Assembly (NCBI RefSeq): GCF_003367235.1
Contig: NZ_QRGP01000001.1
Span: 1,488,001 to 1,552,000 of the forward strand
Direction: 5' to 3'
Length of the DNA: 64,000 nucleotides
From: Sphingorhabdus pulchriflava
GTDB lineage: Bacteria > Pseudomonadota > Alphaproteobacteria > Sphingomonadales > Sphingomonadaceae
The notes under the pieces were generated by a model. It saw only the letters and a program-made list of their open reading frames with translations, was not told the DNA's origin and ran no database searches. Shown piece by piece: positions 39,567 through 47,004 of the stretch; position 1 is the stretch's first letter, and each line of letters opens with the position of its first letter. The translations under genes were made by a program, and so were the position numbers.

Positions 39567-40324
39567 GGAGGCATGGCAGTTAGCCGGATCTTTTAAGGTT
39601 GACGATCTTGCGGGACATGGACGTAGTTGGATTATCGCCTTTCTCGAAGAGCTTCATGGGGTGTTTTTCCATTAAACGCTCCATGGGGGTCGGTTGAAGT
39701 TGTAGAAGTTTTCCCATTCGCTGAGTTTGGCCTCGAGATCGACTTCGCCTTGCCTATCGGCAATGGGAAAGATGTCCCGCACGTCCGTACGGTTCTACAT
39801 AGCTGCCACCTTCACTCGCTAGCAGCCTTGGCGATGCTCCGGATCAAAGAGGCCAGTTGGGGAGCTGCAACTGGAGTGCGCGCTGCCAGAAGGCGGCTCG
39901 GCATTCCCGAGCACAAATCATAATGCTCCATTTGTGAGGAGCAACTGCGTCAAAGCAACGGTGTGATGAAGCTACCCGTCCGATTTCCACTTTTGAATAC
40001 ATTTTACAAATTGGTCAGCGTTTCCGTTGGAGGACCGTCAAACATAATCCGCCGATTTGATGCCCCTTTCGATGACACCCAACGTCGCTTCTGACAACAG
40101 ATATGAAATCACGGCCCAATCAATATGCCAAAGCGAGTATCCGCTGGCTAATTTACCCACGTAGTTTCCGTGCCCGTTCTTTGCCATTTCGCAACATCGC
40201 AACGCCGTGACGCTACTATCAAAAGAGTGTCCGGAGAAAACGGGCAGAACAGGGTATCCAGTCATGTGCCCAAGACGACTCTGCGCAGACGACTGGATTG
40301 CCCCATTTGAAACGGAGACGACCC
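39567..40324. other. Gene-poor spacer with a transposase remnant
   Basis: About 760 bp between xdhC and the fibre-protein gene. It holds one recognisable remnant, the IS481-type transposase tail at 39632-39794. The rest has short open frames with no homology that I can support. The right end (40170-40324) must carry the promoter of the gene at 40325, but no clear -35/-10 or Crp/FixK-type site stands out. Confidence 0.5.
39632..39794 (-). pseudogene. C-terminal remnant of an IS481/IS3-type transposase
   Basis: Read on the minus strand up to a TAA at 39632-39634, the frame gives a tail containing DLEAKLSEWENFYNFNRP followed by HGAFNGKTPHEALRERR. The pattern WExFYNxxRPHGAxxGKTPxEALR is the end of the rve integrase domain in IS481-family transposases. 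Upstream the frame is broken (in-frame TAG at about 39795) and no catalytic DDE or inverted repeats are seen, so this is a decayed fragment. Confidence 0.75.
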
Positions 40325-40933
40325 ATGAAACTCAAGACTATCCTTGCCGCGTCGGCAATCGTCATCGCAATGTCGGCTACGCCATCATTTGCGCAAATCA
40401 CTACAGATACCGATGCCGGTCCGACCACAGGCGGTATCGGAATTGGCAACACTGCCACTTCGACCAGCACGTCGACCGATCTGCAAGTCCAGGATTCGGG
40501 CAACGACAATTCGCAGAACGCGCTAGCTTCGTTCAATACACTCGGTTCGAACAACACTGACAACAGTGACAATTCGGACAACAGCGACAATTCGCTTAAT
40601 CTTAACGATGTGGCAAATGACAAGTCGCAGACCGCGCTTGCCTCGTTCAACACCATCGGTTCGGGCAACACCGACAGCAATCATGACAATGGCAATGACA
40701 GTTCTTCGGTGGTTGCCGATCAGGAACTCAATGCTTCGGTCACAAATGCTCCGGTTCTGGCACTCGCCGGTGTTTCGGCTGTGAACAGCAACAGCGGCAA
40801 CAACTCGGTCGAAGGTAGCGCCTTTGCTGCCTTCTCCGGTATCTTGAACCAAGGCTGGAACAACGGCCAAGGCTCCAACGCTCAGGCAGCGACCAACATT
40901 GCTGCACGCGGCTCGGTCAGCTTCAGCCAATAA
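40325..40933 (+). CDS. Secreted Asn/Ser/Thr-rich repeat protein, candidate fibre subunit
   Basis: 202-aa protein with a Sec signal peptide (MKLKTILAASAIVIAM...PSFAQ, cleavage after about residue 24). The mature part has no cysteine, is rich in Asn, Ser, Thr, Asp and Gln, and holds two imperfect repeats 38 residues apart: NDNSQNALASFNTLGSNNT (residues 60-78) and NDKSQTALASFNTIGSGNT (98-116). A DNS run (about 79-90) lies between them. This composition is that of extracellular amyloid or fibre subunits such as FapB/FapC. It heads a plus-strand cluster with a C39-like peptidase; a stem-loop follows its stop, as often seen after the major subunit gene. Start is supported by CGGAGA upstream. Confidence 0.75.
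   Translation: MKLKTILAASAIVIAMSATPSFAQITTDTDAGPTTGGIGIGNTATSTSTSTDLQVQDSGNDNSQNALASFNTLGSNNTDNSDNSDNSDNSLNLNDVANDKSQTALASFNTIGSGNTDSNHDNGNDSSSVVADQELNASVTNAPVLALAGVSAVNSNSGNNSVEGSAFAAFSGILNQGWNNGQGSNAQAATNIAARGSVSFSQ
40559..40594 (+). repeat. 18-nt tandem repeat in the fibre-protein gene
   Basis: GACAACAGTGACAATTCG at 40559-40576 is followed directly by a copy with one change (40577-40594). Each unit encodes DNSDNS. In-frame repeats like this can change copy number by slippage and so alter the linker between the two protein repeats. Confidence 0.8.
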
Positions 40934-40948
40934 GCTGGTTCGGGATTT

Positions 40949-40982
40949 GGGAGCCGCCAGCCGGTCGCGGCCGACGGCTCCC
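40949..40982 (+). terminator. Stem-loop after the fibre-protein gene
   Basis: GGGAGCCG (40949-40956) and CGGCTCCC (40975-40982) form a perfect 8-bp stem with an 18-nt GC-rich loop that can pair further. No T-tract follows. It probably attenuates or stabilises the transcript so that the first gene is expressed more than those behind it. Confidence 0.5.
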
Positions 40983-41016
40983 GATACTCCCCTACGAAAT
41001 GTGACAGGAGGAGAAA

Positions 41017-41454
41017 ATGCTTAAGCCATTTTACTTTGTGCCGATTACGATCCTAACCGTTGGCGGATTTTCGAACACTGCATTCGCGCAAGAAATCGCA
41101 CCGGTGGAACCCGATTTGATCGAGAATATCGCGCAGGAAGATGGGCCGATATTGTTGGTTGCAGAAGCTGTCATTGTCGATTTGCCTGAACCGGTCATTC
41201 TAGAAAATGATGGCAATCTTTCGGATGAGGAATTGGATTCCGCCCGCGGAGGTGCAACGATCGTCGTCGGCAACCAAACACTGAACGCTGTTAACAGCGG
41301 CGGTGTAATCAACGGCGATTTTTCCGCCGGATCTATCAGCCTTGCCGATAATGCGCTCACAAATTTCAACGGTTTTGGCAACCTGGTGATCAACACAGGT
41401 GCGCAAAACAACCTGCAATCGGGCATGAATGTGACGATCAATTTCGCCAATTAG
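41017..41454 (+). CDS. Sec-exported protein with double-glycine propeptide (substrate 1)
   Basis: 145-aa cysteine-free protein. Signal peptide about residues 1-25 (TAFAQ), an acidic propeptide (residues 26-79) ending LSDEELDSARGG (Gly78-Gly79), then a 66-residue product starting ATIVVGNQ. The propeptide end matches the double-glycine leader pattern LSxxELxxxxGG cleaved by C39 peptidases. The product is rich in Asn and Gly and ends with NLVINTGAQNNLQSGMNV, beta-strand-like and reminiscent of amyloid subunits. A strong AGGAGG precedes the ATG. It is 47 nt upstream of the C39-like peptidase gene. I know no named family for it. Confidence 0.72.
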   Translation: MLKPFYFVPITILTVGGFSNTAFAQEIAPVEPDLIENIAQEDGPILLVAEAVIVDLPEPVILENDGNLSDEELDSARGGATIVVGNQTLNAVNSGGVINGDFSAGSISLADNALTNFNGFGNLVINTGAQNNLQSGMNVTINFAN

Positions 41455-41500
41455 AAATCGTCTATTGCGTGATCTGAAACGAACTCAGGAGTATTCAGCA

Positions 41501-42235
41501 ATGCGTGCGAAAATCGCCTTGATGGCGGTTGTCTGTGCTGTGACAACGAGCCCTTTGGTTGCCGGCACGGTCGGACTGACCCCTGATACGGCGGGTGCCA
41601 ACTACCGCATACGCACCATGAGCTGGGCCGAAATCCCGTTCCGTTCGGTGATCCGCCAGCAATATGATTTCAGCTGCGGTTCTGCTGCCGTGGCGACGCT
41701 TTTGACCTATCACTACGGCATCAAAACCCCCGAGATCGACAGCTTCAAGGCAATGTGGGCAAAGGGTGACCAAGGCAAGATCCGTCAACTCGGGTTTTCC
41801 ATGCTCGACATGAAAAGCTACCTTCAAACCCGTGGTCTGAAAGCGCAAGGCTATCGATTCAAAGTGGCCGACATCGCCAAGGCCAACCAACCTGGCATTG
41901 CCCTTATCGATCTGCGCGGATTCAAGCATTTCGTCGTTGTGAAAGGCGTTCGCGGAAGCCGCGTGTTGGTAGGTGATTCAATATTGGGGCTCACCGAATA
42001 TTCGGCGCAAGATTTCGACAAGATGTGGAATGGCATCTATTTGGCAATCGGCAACCCCGAAGACGACCGCCGTCCCGCTTTCAATCTAGCGAGCGATTGG
42101 GGCCCTTGGTCTAAAGCGCCGCTCGAAGAAAATGTGCTTACCGCTTCGGCAGCGGACGCCACACGCGGTATTCCACCGATCTACCAGTTGAGACCGGAAA
42201 TCCTGCTCGATGTCAGGGTTGGCACGGTTCAATAG
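41501..42235 (+). CDS. Exported C39-like cysteine peptidase
   Basis: 244-aa stand-alone peptidase of the C39 type with an N-terminal signal peptide (KIALMAVVCAVTTSPLVAG) and no ABC transporter part. The catalytic region RQQYDFSCGSAAVATLL gives Gln54 (or Gln53) and Cys59; FKHFVVVKGV gives His143 and VGDSILG gives Asp159. C39 enzymes cut after Gly-Gly of leader peptides; FapD of the Pseudomonas Fap system is of this class. The genes on each side encode exported proteins with GG sites, the probable substrates, so cleavage would take place in the periplasm. I start at MRAKIALM after CAGGAG; twelve more codons are open upstream. Confidence 0.85.
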   Translation: MRAKIALMAVVCAVTTSPLVAGTVGLTPDTAGANYRIRTMSWAEIPFRSVIRQQYDFSCGSAAVATLLTYHYGIKTPEIDSFKAMWAKGDQGKIRQLGFSMLDMKSYLQTRGLKAQGYRFKVADIAKANQPGIALIDLRGFKHFVVVKGVRGSRVLVGDSILGLTEYSAQDFDKMWNGIYLAIGNPEDDRRPAFNLASDWGPWSKAPLEENVLTASAADATRGIPPIYQLRPEILLDVRVGTVQ

Positions 42236-42246
42236 GAGCAAATTCT

Positions 42247-42870
42247 ATGCGCATCTCAACCCTTATCATCGCCTTTGCCAGCGGCTGTTGCGCGCTGGCC
42301 ACGAAGGCAGAGGCCAACGAAATCCAGCCATTGCGAGAGGCAGCCGAAACCCCCGACCGGGTCGCAGAGCCGTTCGCGTTAGCCGAAACGGTCAGCGATG
42401 AGCTGCTCGATCAGCAGCGCGGCGGTTTTGTAATCCATGGGATGAACGTCAACCTCGGCGCCGACATCCGTACCTACATCAATGGCGAGCTGATGCTGCG
42501 CACCACCGTAAGTTGGACCGATGCCGGTGTGCTGAAGGAACAGTTCGCGGCACAGGGAATTTCATCCGCAAATGCCGCCAGTCTGAACGCGTCGGCGCTT
42601 GCCAATGGCAAGATCAGCATGGACGTAGGCGGGACGCCGGTGTTCGCGGCAAATGATGGCCAGACGATGTTGGTCCACCGCGTCGAAAACGGTTTGCAGA
42701 ACATATTGGTCAACACCGCAAGTAACCTCGACATCATCCAACAGGTCGACGCATCGGTTGAGCTCGGCGGATATGAAGCCTTTCATGACAGCATCATGTC
42801 CAACCGTTTATCCGACAGCATCAGTTCGGCCATCGGCGCGATGACCATTGGTGCCGCTTTTGGGCAGTAA
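42247..42870 (+). CDS. Sec-exported protein with double-glycine propeptide (substrate 2)
   Basis: 207-aa protein: a signal peptide (about residues 1-23, ending TKAEA), a propeptide of about 36 residues ending VSDELLDQQRGG (Gly59-Gly60), then a 147-residue product starting FVIHGMN. Its only cysteines are in the signal peptide. The C-terminal half has NGLQNILVNTASNLDIIQQ, which lines up with the NLVINTGAQNNLQ motif of the protein from 41017. So the two share both the leader motif and a mature-region motif while differing in size, as minor and major subunits might. AGGAG lies at good distance from the ATG. It is 11 nt after the peptidase gene. Confidence 0.72.
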   Translation: MRISTLIIAFASGCCALATKAEANEIQPLREAAETPDRVAEPFALAETVSDELLDQQRGGFVIHGMNVNLGADIRTYINGELMLRTTVSWTDAGVLKEQFAAQGISSANAASLNASALANGKISMDVGGTPVFAANDGQTMLVHRVENGLQNILVNTASNLDIIQQVDASVELGGYEAFHDSIMSNRLSDSISSAIGAMTIGAAFGQ

Positions 42871-42931
42871 AGTCGGGCGTACTTATCAAGGTCGCAGTGC
42901 ACCCTGAATTGCATCGGGCCACAATGATCGG

Positions 42932-42968
42932 ACACCCGTGGATCTACTGAATGTATATCCACGGGTGT
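42932..42968. terminator. Hairpin between the convergent substrate-2 and outer-membrane pore genes
   Basis: ACACCCGTGGAT (42932-42943) and its exact inverse (42957-42968) form a 12-bp stem with a 13-nt loop. It lies in the 138-nt gap between convergent stops and probably ends both transcripts. Confidence 0.7.
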
Positions 42969-43008
42969 TCGTTGCATTTCGCGTAAGCCTATATCGAGGC
43001 GAGCAATC

Positions 43009-44322
43009 TTAAAATGTGATTGGCAATCTCAGTACAACCGACATACCCGGTGCATCGGCGGTTGCGCCCAGTTGCAGGCCGAAGTTGATCGATTGGCGCT
43101 CGTTCAGCCGGTAGGACATGCCAAAGGCAAAGGTGCCGCTCTGCAAATGTGTCGACCGCTGTTTGGTTCCGCCGATGATCTGCTCGGTGGGGAAAATATA
43201 GGTGTGATTGTAGCCCAGCGAGAAGGAAAAGCGGGGATTGAGAGCGAAGCCAAATCCTATGTTGGCGCTCGCCGCATCGCCGGGGTTTACCCGGCCGACA
43301 AGGACGTCGCCGACGATCCGATCGACATTTTTAGGCAAGTGATAGAGGAAGCTCATTCCGCCATAGATCACCACCGGATCGGAAGGTAAAAGGAAGCTTA
43401 AACCGGGCTGGATGCCCCAAAAACCTGAACCCGTCGGCAAACCGGTTGCAACACCAAAGGAATCAAAACCTACGTCAAAGGGGCTTTTTCCTGTCGCGCT
43501 TTTGACCCGCAGGCTGGCGATACCGATCATCCGGTTTTGTTCGGTCGGCGCGTTGACCTGGTATCGCAGCGCTATTTCGGCGTCGCCTATATCCGACTCT
43601 TCGAGTTTGAGCGTACGGACGATACCTTCGTCGCGAAGTTGTGTGACCTTTATCCGGTCGTGACGGTACATCACCGGCATACGGCCCTCTATTTCCAACC
43701 GGTCGGTAATGCCGTACCGCAGCGCGACGGTGCCAACCAAGGCATCGCGATCAACGTCGCTGGCCTCGATCAACCCGACCTGAAGCCCGGGAATCAGTTC
43801 AAATCCCCTGAAGACCAGCCTGTTCGCGGAAGAGTTGGTATATTCGAACGATGTATCAAGAGTCAGCCTGCCTTTTGGAGTGAGCACACCCTGCCCTTCC
43901 GGAACCGCCGCCACCATAGCCTCGACCGCCGGTTCGGGCGGAGGCGCTTCACCTACCGGGGCACCCGGGAGCGGATCGGTGGAGTCCAAATATGCAGAAG
44001 CCGGCATCTGGTCGATTCCTGTGCCTCTCAACTGCGCCAGATCAAAATCGCCGGAAGTGCGATTGAGGAGTGTCTCGATCGCTGCTTGTTGGCGGGCGAT
44101 GGTTTCATTTTGAACTTTGATCATTTCGCGCTGCGCGCTGATCTCTGCCCGCATCAGTTTCAATTGCTCGGCGACGCTTGGCTCGGAAACAACATCACCC
44201 GGGCTTTCCGCATCTCCGTCCAGATCAAACGCCACGGCCTTTGTGGGTATCGTAATCGCTGTCACCGATACGGCACAACCCAAAGCAGCGCGAATGCTGC
44301 GTCCTGAAAATGTGCGGGTCAC
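43009..44322 (-). CDS. Outer-membrane barrel with N-terminal coiled coil (FapF-like pore)
   Basis: 437-aa protein. Signal peptide residues 1-31 (ends KAVA), coiled coil about residues 49-88 (heptads in VAEQLKLMRAEISAQRE and IKVQNETIARQQAAIETLL), a Pro/Ala-rich linker (about 104-145), and a beta barrel from GVLTPKGRLTLDTSF to the terminal Phe. The design coiled coil-linker-barrel is that of FapF, the trimeric pore that exports amyloid subunits in Pseudomonas, and of related outer-membrane transporters. It starts with GTG 44322 after GGGAGA, 3 nt downstream of the Crp/Fnr-type gene, so the two are cotranscribed. Convergent to the fibre/peptidase genes. Confidence 0.8.
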   Translation of the reverse strand: MTRTFSGRSIRAALGCAVSVTAITIPTKAVAFDLDGDAESPGDVVSEPSVAEQLKLMRAEISAQREMIKVQNETIARQQAAIETLLNRTSGDFDLAQLRGTGIDQMPASAYLDSTDPLPGAPVGEAPPPEPAVEAMVAAVPEGQGVLTPKGRLTLDTSFEYTNSSANRLVFRGFELIPGLQVGLIEASDVDRDALVGTVALRYGITDRLEIEGRMPVMYRHDRIKVTQLRDEGIVRTLKLEESDIGDAEIALRYQVNAPTEQNRMIGIASLRVKSATGKSPFDVGFDSFGVATGLPTGSGFWGIQPGLSFLLPSDPVVIYGGMSFLYHLPKNVDRIVGDVLVGRVNPGDAASANIGFGFALNPRFSFSLGYNHTYIFPTEQIIGGTKQRSTHLQSGTFAFGMSYRLNERQSINFGLQLGATADAPGMSVVLRLPITF

Positions 44323-44325
44323 TGC

Positions 44326-45039
44326 TTATCTCCCAAAAGCTGTTGCGGGAGCCATAGCCAAAGTCGGACAGTCCAAAGCGCCTATCTGGTCCTTTTGCTC
44401 GTGTGACGAGTCTCGGCCCTCTCCATCGGCAAGCAATCGCAGCAGCTGCGGGTTGCAGATCGTAATCGACTGCGGCCCGTTGAGGTTTATGATCTCGCGT
44501 CGCGCCAGTTCGGACAAGGTGCGGCTTACCGTATGGATAGTCAAACCCAGATGGTCGGCGATGTCGGCGCGCGTCATCGGCAGGTTCAGTGAGTCGCGAC
44601 CACCGATGCGCCAAGCAGTCGCCAAAAGGAAAGCCGCCACACGCTCGTTCGCGGTTCTCCGCCCGAGAAGCGAAATACAGGATTGTGCGTGGTTCAAAGC
44701 GCTTTGCAGAATGCTGCTCGCTTCGGGAATTTGCTCTGCCGGAATTGCAAAACCTATCGCCTTGCTTCTCCGGGTTAATGTCACAGGAGTCACAGCCTCG
44801 GCAGAGGAGCGAAACTTTTCTGCTTCAATGCCGAATACGTCGCCGCCATAATAGAAACCAGTCAACTGCCGATGCCCGTCGCGATACAGAAAACATGTTC
44901 GCACCGTGCCGGAAACCACTTGATACCAGTCGCTTGCAGGGTCTCCCTGAGCGTAGATGATCTCGCCTTTGCGAAATTTCAGGGTTGTTTGTGTATGACG
45001 TGCAGCCGGATTGGCTGTTTGACCGCTAAGCCTGAGCAT
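44326..45039 (-). CDS. Crp/Fnr-family regulator (FixK-like)
   Basis: 237-aa one-component regulator: a cyclic-nucleotide-binding-type beta barrel (FRKGEIIYAQGDPASDWYQV, FYYGGDVFGIEAE), a long dimer helix, and a winged helix with MTRADIADHLGLTIHTVSRTL, which is close to the FixK/FnrN recognition helix. It has none of the N-terminal Fe-S cysteines of Fnr. FixK-type proteins bind TTGAT-N4-ATCAA sites. It is cotranscribed with the outer-membrane pore. A perfect palindrome at 45172-45190 lies upstream. Confidence 0.9.
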   Translation of the reverse strand: MLRLSGQTANPAARHTQTTLKFRKGEIIYAQGDPASDWYQVVSGTVRTCFLYRDGHRQLTGFYYGGDVFGIEAEKFRSSAEAVTPVTLTRRSKAIGFAIPAEQIPEASSILQSALNHAQSCISLLGRRTANERVAAFLLATAWRIGGRDSLNLPMTRADIADHLGLTIHTVSRTLSELARREIINLNGPQSITICNPQLLRLLADGEGRDSSHEQKDQIGALDCPTLAMAPATAFGR

Positions 45040-45171
45040 TTTACATTCCCTTTGCTGGCGCGGCCCGTTTTTTTTGTTTTTGGGGTACGCTGGCTAGCCT
45101 AAACAACGGAGGAATTGCTGGCTATTGCATGGATTTCGCAGGTGCTTTGCCATTGAGGGAAACATGTGGGT

Positions 45172-45190
45172 AAATTCACTGAGTGAATTT
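45172..45190. promoter_or_regulatory. Perfect palindrome between two divergent regulator genes
   Basis: AAATTCACT-G-AGTGAATTT: perfect 9-bp arms around one base, lying 133 nt upstream of the Crp/Fnr gene and 120 nt upstream of the LuxR-type gene. It looks like an operator. It does not match the FixK (TTGAT-N4-ATCAA) or Crp (TGTGA-N6-TCACA) consensus exactly, so the binding protein is open. Confidence 0.55.
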
Positions 45191-45309
45191 TACAATTGGG
45201 TTTAACTTAGGATATATGCTAGATGATGAGGTGAGGTTGACGGGGCAAAATTTATCGTCAATTTCACACGCAACAGAGGGCAAGATAGAAGCAGCGCCCG
45301 TTCGGGGAT

Positions 45310-45651
45310 TTGCCTGAACTGAATTTAGAGCTGCAAGCTGAAAACATTTGGGTTGCAAACGGTTTTACTGGTCGCGTCAGTTTCGATGACGAAGAGGATA
45401 ATACTGTGTTGCACATCGATCCGCAAAGCGGAGTCCCGGCCCTTACTGCCCGGGAACAACAGGTTTTGGAATTAGTATCGCAGGGGTTGTCAGCTAAAGA
45501 GACGGCGCAGGAAATCGCAATAGCGCCCCGCACGGTTGAGCGTCACATCGAAAATGTCAGATTGAAATTGCGGGCAAGAAATCGCACGCATATGGTGACT
45601 TTGGCACTCGAACTGGGTTTATTGCATTTCGACAGCGCGGAAGCTGCTTAA
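45310..45651 (+). CDS. LuxR-type helix-turn-helix protein without sensor domain
   Basis: 113-aa protein with a GerE/LuxR DNA-binding domain in its C-terminal two thirds (LTAREQQVLELVSQGLSAKE, IAPRTVERHIENVRLKL). The N-terminal 45 residues are acidic and too short for a receiver or autoinducer domain. It starts with TTG at 45310; a GTG at 45406 is possible but would leave almost only the HTH. Divergent from the FixK-like gene across the 45172-45190 palindrome. Confidence 0.75.
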   Translation: MPELNLELQAENIWVANGFTGRVSFDDEEDNTVLHIDPQSGVPALTAREQQVLELVSQGLSAKETAQEIAIAPRTVERHIENVRLKLRARNRTHMVTLALELGLLHFDSAEAA

Positions 45652-45993
45652 AATGCGTTAGCGCGATCATGATCTTTGCAGCAATAGCGCTAGGTAGAAG
45701 TCGGAACAGTCTGTTCAACGTGCTATCTTTACCCGAAAGGGCCGGCACCTCACATTTAACGTGCATACGGGGCCAAACTAATAGTCCAACAAAATTCAAA
45801 AAATCGTTCAATACATCGGTAACCGCAGGCAAACCGCTGATCCGAAATTCGACAGTTTGTTCACGGCATCAGCAGGTCGGTAGACGAATGAGTTAAGCCC
45901 GATTTCCAATTGAGTCCTGCAAATCCGCTCGACATACTGAGAATTCCACATCTGCGTGAATAGCGCTGATCCGGGTCAGGAGACAGGGATAAA
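45652..45993. other. Intergenic region before the unknown gene at 45994
   Basis: 342 bp, AT-rich at its left end. I see no RNA gene, terminator with T-tract, operator or convincing promoter. Short open frames here have no support. Confidence 0.4.
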
Positions 45994-47004
45994 ATGGAAC
46001 AGGAACGAGCGAACGACGACATTCTGCTCCTCGACAACGCACTGATCTGCCCCACAGAGTCGGGAGGAGAGAGCGCCATAGAGTCTGAACAAAATGTCCT
46101 TTTGCTTTGCAATGTGGTGCCACCAGAACCGGTGGTCAAAAAAATCGATGTCGGCCCGCGAATTTCTGGTTTCGAGCTGACCGCGGCTCGGGCCGAACCC
46201 AGTCGCGCAACTGATATCGGAAACGCGACGGAATGGAGCATCATAAAGTCACCTGCACAAGGCAATAATCCTGCCACAGAGCCAACGCGGTCGCCCACCC
46301 CTGTCTTTGTGATGGGCAAAAACACGCCAAAGCTAGCTGCTTTGGACAATTTCGCACAGCCGAGTTCGGGCGTTGCCGGGGCGGCGGACCTGGCGCATTT
46401 GCTTGCCGAGGCACGGGCCTTCGCGTCTGATTATGGCGTGATGAACGCGCGCACCCGCAAGGCACTTTATACCGCTCTGGGGCCAACTTACGATCTCACA
46501 TTTTATGCAGATCACCAGCCTGAGGCCTATGCGCGGCTAATCGAAGAGGCCGGACTGACAATTCAGGATCGAGCGCCCTATACGCCGATCATAAAGCTGG
46601 TCTTCGGCGCAGACTATGACAAAGCGCGCGTCACCGAATTTGCCGCCGCGATCGCTTATGGCCGGCGCAAAAACCTGCCGGTCGGGACTTTTTCCGATTT
46701 CCTGGCCACTTTCGATGGCGGCGTGAAAGCCATGGTCGCTCTGGAACGTTTGATCCGCAATAGTGGAGATCGCGCCGGAGCCGATAGCGCGCGCAATGAA
46801 GCCCGCCCTGCGGTAGCCCGCAAGTTGCGGAACATTACGATGCAAACTTGGGAAGCTCTTTCGAACGAGGGGGACGAATTCGCCCTGTTAATCGCCCGCC
46901 GTTTGCCCGACGGCAGAATCGCCATGTTGGGTGAAGTTCCCCGCGATGTTGCGCTACTGGAAAAAGCGGCGCGCAAACTGTTGGCGAATCTGGAACGTAT
47001 CTAG
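45994..47004 (+). CDS. Protein of unknown function
   Basis: 336-aa soluble-looking protein without signal peptide or membrane segment. The first 125 residues are low complexity and rich in Glu, Ser, Pro and Asn; the rest (about 130-336) is a compact helical domain with DLAHLLAEARAFASDYG, RLIEEAGLTIQDR, AAIAYGRRKNLPVGTFSDFL and an Arg/Ala-rich C-terminus. I do not recognise a family. Codon use is like that of the neighbours, and the frame is long and intact, so it is likely real. It sits between the fibre cluster and the exopolysaccharide locus, 229 nt before the aminotransferase gene; membership in either is unproven. Confidence 0.65.
   Translation: MEQERANDDILLLDNALICPTESGGESAIESEQNVLLLCNVVPPEPVVKKIDVGPRISGFELTAARAEPSRATDIGNATEWSIIKSPAQGNNPATEPTRSPTPVFVMGKNTPKLAALDNFAQPSSGVAGAADLAHLLAEARAFASDYGVMNARTRKALYTALGPTYDLTFYADHQPEAYARLIEEAGLTIQDRAPYTPIIKLVFGADYDKARVTEFAAAIAYGRRKNLPVGTFSDFLATFDGGVKAMVALERLIRNSGDRAGADSARNEARPAVARKLRNITMQTWEALSNEGDEFALLIARRLPDGRIAMLGEVPRDVALLEKAARKLLANLERI

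Follow-up and report, generated by a model that had tools for sequence, protein, structure and literature searches.

The locus considered here has its closest described relatives in three systems: the Fap system of Pseudomonas (fapABCDEF), the Fil system (FilB/FilC, the 'putative pilus system' of NCBIfam), which belongs to Acinetobacter, and the peptidase-containing ABC transporters, in which a C39 fold is combined with double-glycine leaders. Pseudomonas FapD is described in one report as periplasmic, with a cysteine mutant that blocks secretion; the same report calls its target unclear and the Fap proteins devoid of canonical C39 sequences (PMC5557850). In a 2025 review, FapD is still 'thought to process' FapE and FapF (PMC12822426), and co-localised fapD and fapF homologues have been noted in five further phyla (PMC6173800). 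We analysed a window of 64,000 nucleotides (nt) of Sphingorhabdus pulchriflava (the whole stretch from position 1,488,001 to 1,552,000 of contig NZ_QRGP01000001.1, in which all positions below are numbered), where a gene cluster at 40325-45039 had been described as Fap-like in the original prediction. We herein report that two exported proteins beside a FapD homologue in this cluster carry double-glycine leaders, and that a degenerate form of the same leader can be recognised in canonical FapE. The substrate rule of FapD is the interesting part of the locus.

The open reading frames (ORFs) were taken from a program-made list and re-checked. ORFs A to E and a Crp/FixK-type gene all lie where the original prediction had placed them, and its description of an exported Asn/Ser-rich protein (A), two GG-leader proteins (B and D), an exported C39 peptidase between these and a convergent barrel was confirmed throughout. 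ORF C (41501-42235, + strand, 244 aa) is an exported, stand-alone C39 cysteine peptidase with a signal-peptide-like start, no ABC transporter domain and no Pfam domain other than Peptidase_C39 (PF03412, E = 4.9e-16); this genome gives one match at E <= 0.001. Signal peptides were called by eye and a hydrophobicity rule, without a trained predictor. ORF C matches the NCBIfam FapD model at 2.7e-42 (144.6 bits, below the equivalog cut-off of 330) and FilB at 3.6e-32 (111.8 bits, below the cut-off of 475). Q53, C59, H143 and D159, positions with a catalytic role in the C39 family (C59, H143 and D159 being of the triad type), are invariant in an alignment of 13 homologues. ORF E (43009-44322, - strand, 437 aa), with an outer-membrane barrel at about residues 144-437 and an N-terminal coiled-coil-like region, matches the solved FapF chains 5o65/5o67/5o68 of the PDB along residues 144-436 (E values from 1.9e-28 to 1.6e-27), the NCBIfam FapF model at 9.4e-34 (116.9 bits, far below the equivalog cut-off of 700) and FilC at 1e-15 (57.9 bits, below the cut-off of 630). 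The PTG motif of FapF is present as LPTGSGFW, and the N-terminal region aligns with that of FapF in a sequence alignment. A barrel alignment against the FapF of a canonical locus (L102) was dropped as evidence because it was circular, L102 being already inside the alignment. ORF C and ORF E are true FapD and FapF homologues, as had been predicted, with scores well under the NCBIfam equivalog cut-offs. The Fap gene order (fapD, then the fapE position, then fapF) is kept in the window, where fapF is convergent; among relatives, fapF lies downstream of fapD in 89/94 loci (54 convergent, 35 co-oriented).

The two leader-bearing proteins flank the peptidase. ORF B (41017-41454, + strand, 145 aa) is a small exported protein whose Sec-type start ends in TAFA before Q; its double-glycine-type leader, LSDEELDSARGG, occupies residues 68-79 (41218-41253, + strand), and residues 80-145 are the predicted mature part. 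ORF D (42247-42870, + strand, 207 aa) stands at the FapE gene position and has a Sec-type start, a leader of the same type, VSDELLDQQRGG, at residues 49-60 (42391-42426, + strand) and a predicted mature part at residues 61-207. None of 1999 composition shuffles of either protein scored as high as its best leader site (p 0.0005 each, with the caveat that their own families trained the matrix); the leaders of B and D are more than chance. Residues R58, G59 and G60 of ORF D are invariant in 17 homologues, and strict GG leaders occur in 42/83 B and 64/84 D proteins of the redundancy-reduced families. Read by regular expression with one protein per locus, residues -2/-1 of D are GG in 74, GA in 9, GS in 4, GR in 2, GK in 2 and unassigned in 13 (n=104); those of B are GG in 41, GR in 25 and other or unassigned in 40 (n=106), some of the latter sites perhaps being misplaced because the expression stops at its first match. 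The AlphaFold2 (AF2) models, both poor, place the sole helix of ORF B at residues 70-77 (mean predicted local distance difference test score, pLDDT, 60.3) and a helix of ORF D at residues 51-57 (pLDDT 61.6). ORFs A, B and D have no convincing Pfam or NCBIfam family match, and 0/28 aligned members of the B family match Pfam at E <= 0.01.

Such leaders gather around FapD in other genomes as well. A filter for a hydrophobic start followed by [LIVMF][STADEN]xxx[LMIV]xxxxGG was applied to all six-frame ORFs of 95 loci, with six peptidase-ABC-type loci dropped and near-identical loci kept. It found 92 ORFs no farther than 2.5 kb from FapD, on both sides, in 69 of the 95 loci, a small number of them lying on the opposite strand and two being FapD itself; by kilobase bin, 33 fall at -1 (upstream of FapD), 6 at 0 and 50 at +1 (downstream), and the remaining 18 bins hold 32 in total. 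In ten Fil-type and unassigned loci (L122-L129, L014, L141), no exported ORF on the same strand within 5 kb exceeded the set leader scores. The Fil system, which shares the placing of a C39 peptidase beside a FapF-like barrel, thus differs from the window in this respect in eight Fil-type loci (L122-L129, of which L126 alone was checked against NCBIfam). Peptidase-containing ABC transporters differ in another way: the protease of the window is exported alone, with no ABC domain, and its candidate substrates also have a Sec-type start. Two observations on individual loci are added here. A shorter FapD/FapF-like pair (L014:1058-2981) is accompanied by a small exported ORF with LDDVQLDALTAG, perhaps a further leader variant, and one locus (L114:4924-9370, genome G459) holds two B-fapD-D cassettes 2.86 kb apart, with identical scores and displayed sequence and a single fapF, likely a recent tandem duplication.

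The leader reappears in canonical FapE. With the FapE of L102, a locus in which FapA to FapF all score above the NCBIfam cut-offs, phmmer returned 33 hits at E <= 1e-3; the RGG-bearing L089 was set aside and near-duplicates were removed, leaving 26. A leader matrix trained on 106 B/D leaders and no FapE was then used on these proteins without its last two glycines. The best site reached p 0.002 (499 shuffles) in 26/26 FapE proteins, with scores of 14.0-24.0, and the other Fap proteins scored <=12.5. In proteins with a well-placed start codon, the site lies at residue 28-48, directly behind the signal peptide (e.g. LKDQELATLRGR). Residues -2/-1 are GR in 23, GK in 8 and GG in 1 by regular expression (n=32), which means that the FapE leader carries RG[R/K] where the B and D leaders have RGG. 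Because GG and GR alternate at the ORF B site (41 and 25 of 106), the GR form of FapE is inside the family range. According to published work, FapE is the sole Fap protein without peptides from its first ~70 residues (PMC5557850); these absent peptides fit a cut near the leader, wherever exactly it falls. FapE being a suspected but unproven FapD substrate, the shared leader names a testable site, and it is because the relatives keep the textbook double-glycine leader that the degenerate FapE form becomes readable and the exact site nameable. As a separate observation, FapA (L102:8562-8999 and 20 others) has a conserved ELSDxDFAxxxSG-like stretch past a variable N-terminus, which resembles a worn C39 leader.

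Family against family, D and FapE align in hhalign with prob 97.2 and E 3.8e-11 over 41 columns, comprising the leader and ~25 aa after it; a single FapE against D gave prob 18 and E 0.0013. The NCBIfam FapE model matches the RGG-type D of L114 at 1.2e-4 and gives no match for the D of the window. These profiles do not demonstrate that ORF D is a full-length FapE homologue, as without the leader they fail to match significantly. Judged from the alignments, D and FapE have the leader and the gene position in common, which falls short of full homology. B and D are non-equivalent because D has the FapE position and leader, and B shares a domain with A. The GG proteins had been proposed as protease precursors: leaders fitting a periplasmic C39 peptidase are indeed present on two proteins, and the idea that these are equivalent precursors did not hold.

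Relatives were collected by a degenerate-pattern scan of named genomes, from which the best 80 of at least 590 confirmed were used; because these were ranked from a sphingomonad-seeded alignment, the sample is skewed to close kin. A FapD fragment 91% identical to ORF C occurs in a Sphingorhabdus metagenome-assembled genome (MAG; L038). In a separate draw, 296 genomes of the order were searched for FapD, FapF and D. A C39 match at E <= 0.001 was present in 67/296 genomes; FapD-type matches, defined as E <= 1e-35, comprise 43 genes in 42 genomes, the next match being 1.9e-15, and most remaining C39 matches lie in frames of ~700 aa, as long as those of peptidase-ABC transporters. When FapF was searched for (E <= 1e-10), the same 42/296 genomes were recovered, and in 43/43 FapD/FapF pairs the starts of the two matches are no more than 3.7 kb apart. 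ORF D matches (E <= 0.001) were found in 27 genomes, two of them weak (G238 and G310, 7.6e-4 and 9.6e-4), all among the 42 and each <=1.3 kb from FapD, and at these thresholds FapF and D were both missing from the other 254/296 genomes. Outside the window, the GG protein D thus accompanies the barrel in 27/42 FapD/FapF genomes against 0/254 others; together with the profile matches to FapD and FapF, this means that neither of the two results named as refuting the original prediction was obtained. Those 15 of the 42 in which D gave no match include canonical-like FapE loci (L131, L132) and more distant types (G054, G295, G198). One FapD-type match (G139:C1:687959-688651) has an in-frame TGA inside the matched stretch, reflecting either a broken gene or a TGA outside the real gene.

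A FapD tree was built from the 83 loci left of 150 after redundancy removal, the label GG-type denoting an ORF D family match whatever the -1 residue. The GG-type group holds 67 rows (64 GG, 2 without a D match, 1 FapE-labelled; support 95/94). The FapE-type group holds nine loci (99/99), joined at 82/81 by the GG-labelled L140, and the Fil type forms a separate, long-branched group of three (99/100). As the root is a midpoint placed for drawing, the 'sister' status of the GG group and canonical Fap is our inference. Members of the GG group come from Alpha-, Beta- and Gammaproteobacteria and from Geotalea (Thermodesulfobacteriota), together with MAGs labelled Myxococcota and Chloroflexota that are maybe misbinned. 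The FapE type is carried by G021 (L013), a genome of the window's genus. In two further genomes (L126 and L127; G382 and G467), a canonical FapD over the cut-off is accompanied by a second FapD/FapF-like pair, that of L126 being closest to FilB/FilC, below the cut-offs. On this evidence the window locus is a member of a broad FapD group set apart from canonical Fap; the original prediction of a Fap-like but distinct system stands as to distinctness, whereas a system peculiar to one alphaproteobacterium does not.

It may be asked whether the locus is simply canonical Fap diverged in sequence, the distinction being purely taxonomic. The two systems do share Sec-exported parts, a periplasmic C39 protease, a barrel with an N-terminal coiled-coil-like region, an exported Asn-rich protein upstream, the order of subunit genes, fapD, fapE position and fapF, and the leader common to D/B and FapE. 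However, the window has full double-glycine leaders on two proteins, a single A and a small B in place of FapB/FapC, no FapA match, a convergent fapF and scores far below the equivalog cut-offs; none of the NCBIfam FapA, FapB, FapC and FapE models matches A, B or D at E <= 1; the FapD of the GG group is apart from the FapE-type group; and G125, a genome of the same order, carries both types. We consider this explanation unlikely.

ORF A (40325-40933, + strand, 202 aa) has a Sec-type start ending in PSFA before Q, is rich in N, S, D and T, and is the candidate major fibre subunit. Its best leader site has p 0.32 when the full matrix is used and 0.038 when the glycines are taken out of it, and ORF A has no convincing double-glycine leader; most of the fibre mass is for this reason probably not processed by FapD. 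The C-terminal ~70 aa of the A family align with mature B in family hhalign at prob 95.9 and E 5.5e-9 (reversed control, E 0.54). Upstream of GG-type loci with enough flank, an exported N/D/S-rich ORF is found in 69/81, compared with 0/66 and 0/62 on the same strand and 1/66 on both strands in far-region controls. The homology of mature B to the end of A suggests that A and B are paired fibre subunits. B and D share a C-terminal stretch (hhalign prob 96.4 at full length, 45 for the mature parts only), and B is likelier than D to be a fibre subunit. Homology of B to FapA was rejected (the B family gave hhalign prob 0.3), and the repeat profile gave no support to B and D as FapB/FapC repeat proteins. 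Separately, mature FapE shows a weak resemblance to the FapB end (prob 55.7 and E 1.2e-4 in hhalign), hinting at a subunit-like repeat in FapE.

We regard it as moderately probable that the locus is a divergent Fap-type fibre export system with the following path. All five proteins, which have signal-peptide-like starts, would cross the inner membrane via Sec. Past Sec, B and D would still bear the second leader L-x-D-x-E-L-x-x-x-R-G-G, a motif seen in both, on which the periplasmic FapD homologue may dock and after whose glycines it may cut. The uncut leader would keep B and D inert and bring them to a trimeric FapF pore. Subsequently, A (maybe made in excess) and mature B would leave through the pore and assemble into a surface fibre, A providing the bulk and B a nucleator or cap, while D would take the part of FapE, starting secretion or anchoring the fibre. 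In canonical Fap, FapE would be cut at the RG of L-x-D-x-E-L-A-x-L-R-G-[RK], shortly after the signal peptide.

The FapF linker has a similar site, which may also be cut and perhaps free the plug or coiled coil. The leader-like SGDFDLAQLRGTG (44017-44055, - strand, residues 90-102 of ORF E) is a possible third FapD site, with p 0.015 by the full matrix and 0.079 without glycines. In GG-type loci, a site is present at p <= 0.05 in 19/51 and at p <= 0.01 in 10/51 FapF linkers of >=60 aa, typically LxxLRG[TGA]; shorter linkers have none (0/8), and those of FapE-type loci have one in 2/16 (L089, L131), in counts that drop rows nearly identical or without a recognisable barrel start and that contain some over-extended starts. 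FapD cutting at the FapF junction has been proposed on other grounds (PMC5557850). The wider proposition, which we hold to be evenly balanced, is that a broad sister group of Fap has Sec substrates with a second, periplasmically cut double-glycine leader, that the worn RG[R/K] form marks FapE as a FapD substrate, and that sites of this kind lie in many FapF linkers.

Several results weigh against these readings. By the leader matrix, FapB reached p <= 0.01 in 10/26 proteins, mostly at an internal conserved stretch without RG, as did FapD in 2/21 and FapC in 1/20; FapA gave 0/16 at p <= 0.01 and 2/16 at 0.05, and FapF of FapE-type loci 0/19 at p <= 0.01 and two at 0.05. Since family members are kin, shuffle p-values within a family are interdependent. 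The profiles of D and FapE without the leader showed no significant match (prob 0.7 and 1.9), and B against FapE gave prob 93 in a comparison that contained signal peptide and leader, from which it follows that these two elements alone can drive high profile scores. As for the subunits, mature B has a weak match to a FapB repeat (prob 35, E 4e-4; reversed 0.65), A matches FapC at prob 85 at the signal-peptide end only, and the FapB/FapC repeat profile found 0/107 B and 0/105 D proteins at E < 0.1. The AF2 models of D and B are of low quality, as given above, and the fold of ORF D had no PDB match at E <= 0.001.

On the question of cutting itself, the leader might be a docking tag only, with the FapD homologue escorting its substrates uncut in the manner of the inactive C39-like domains of some type I exporters. 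Non-cutting C39-like domains exist (PMC5557850), and the -1 residue varies (GG, GR, GA, GS and others), which is unexpected for a strict protease; yet the triad-type residues are invariant in the 13 homologues, and the loss of secretion in the Pseudomonas FapD cysteine mutant (same source) also speaks for an active enzyme, so that an escort without cleavage is improbable. Lastly, secretion by the barrel of effector or bacteriocin-like peptides B and D matured by the C39 peptidase, with no fibre, would suit the small size of ORF B and the pairing of double-glycine leaders with C39 peptidases, a hallmark of bacteriocin export (PMC5557850), but is very unlikely given a peptidase without an ABC transporter domain and with a signal-peptide-like start, the homology of mature B to the end of the Asn/Ser-rich ORF A, and the N/D/S-rich ORF of 69/81 loci.

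Returning to the proposed fibre export locus, its surroundings offer some hints on regulation. The Crp/FixK-type regulator gene (44326-45039, - strand; NCBIfam FixK 1.5e-44, 151.8 bits against a cut-off of 300) sits 3 bp upstream of fapF, and a homologue lies <=3 kb from fapF in 24 fetched loci, a rough spacing given that some fapF starts are over-extended. FNR/FixK boxes with <=1 mismatch number three across the window, where 6.6 are expected, and none falls inside 40000-46000. A divergent neighbour, the LuxR-type HTH (helix-turn-helix) regulator (45310-45651, + strand; PF00196 7.5e-17), is probably associated with the fibre cluster, homologues lying <=3 kb from fapF in 18 loci (19 matches). 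Directly past the ORF A stop, a stem-loop (40947-40984, + strand; z -2.2 in the window) recurs, with z <= -2 in 65/74 homologous A-B junctions compared with 23/106 past the ORF B stop; because mononucleotide shuffles were used, these z values are inflated. It is a possible messenger RNA stabiliser or attenuator favouring A over B-D, giving unequal operon expression. The strong hairpin between the convergent ORFs D and E (42929-42971, no strand assigned; z -3.6 over 42871-43008, mononucleotide shuffles) is likely a bidirectional terminator.

In the literature, surveyed at title and abstract level with most subscription papers and all of bioRxiv outside the survey, the matches listed include no shared FapE leader and no double-glycine substrates beside FapD. 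We make no claim to have detected the FapD/FapF pair first, as Fig. S1 of PMC6173800 may include such loci. If the proposal is true, FapD would act as a leader peptidase in the periplasm and follow a single recognition rule across amyloid exporters, and Fap-type export would extend to those Alpha-, Beta- and Gammaproteobacteria that have loci under the curated Fap cut-offs.

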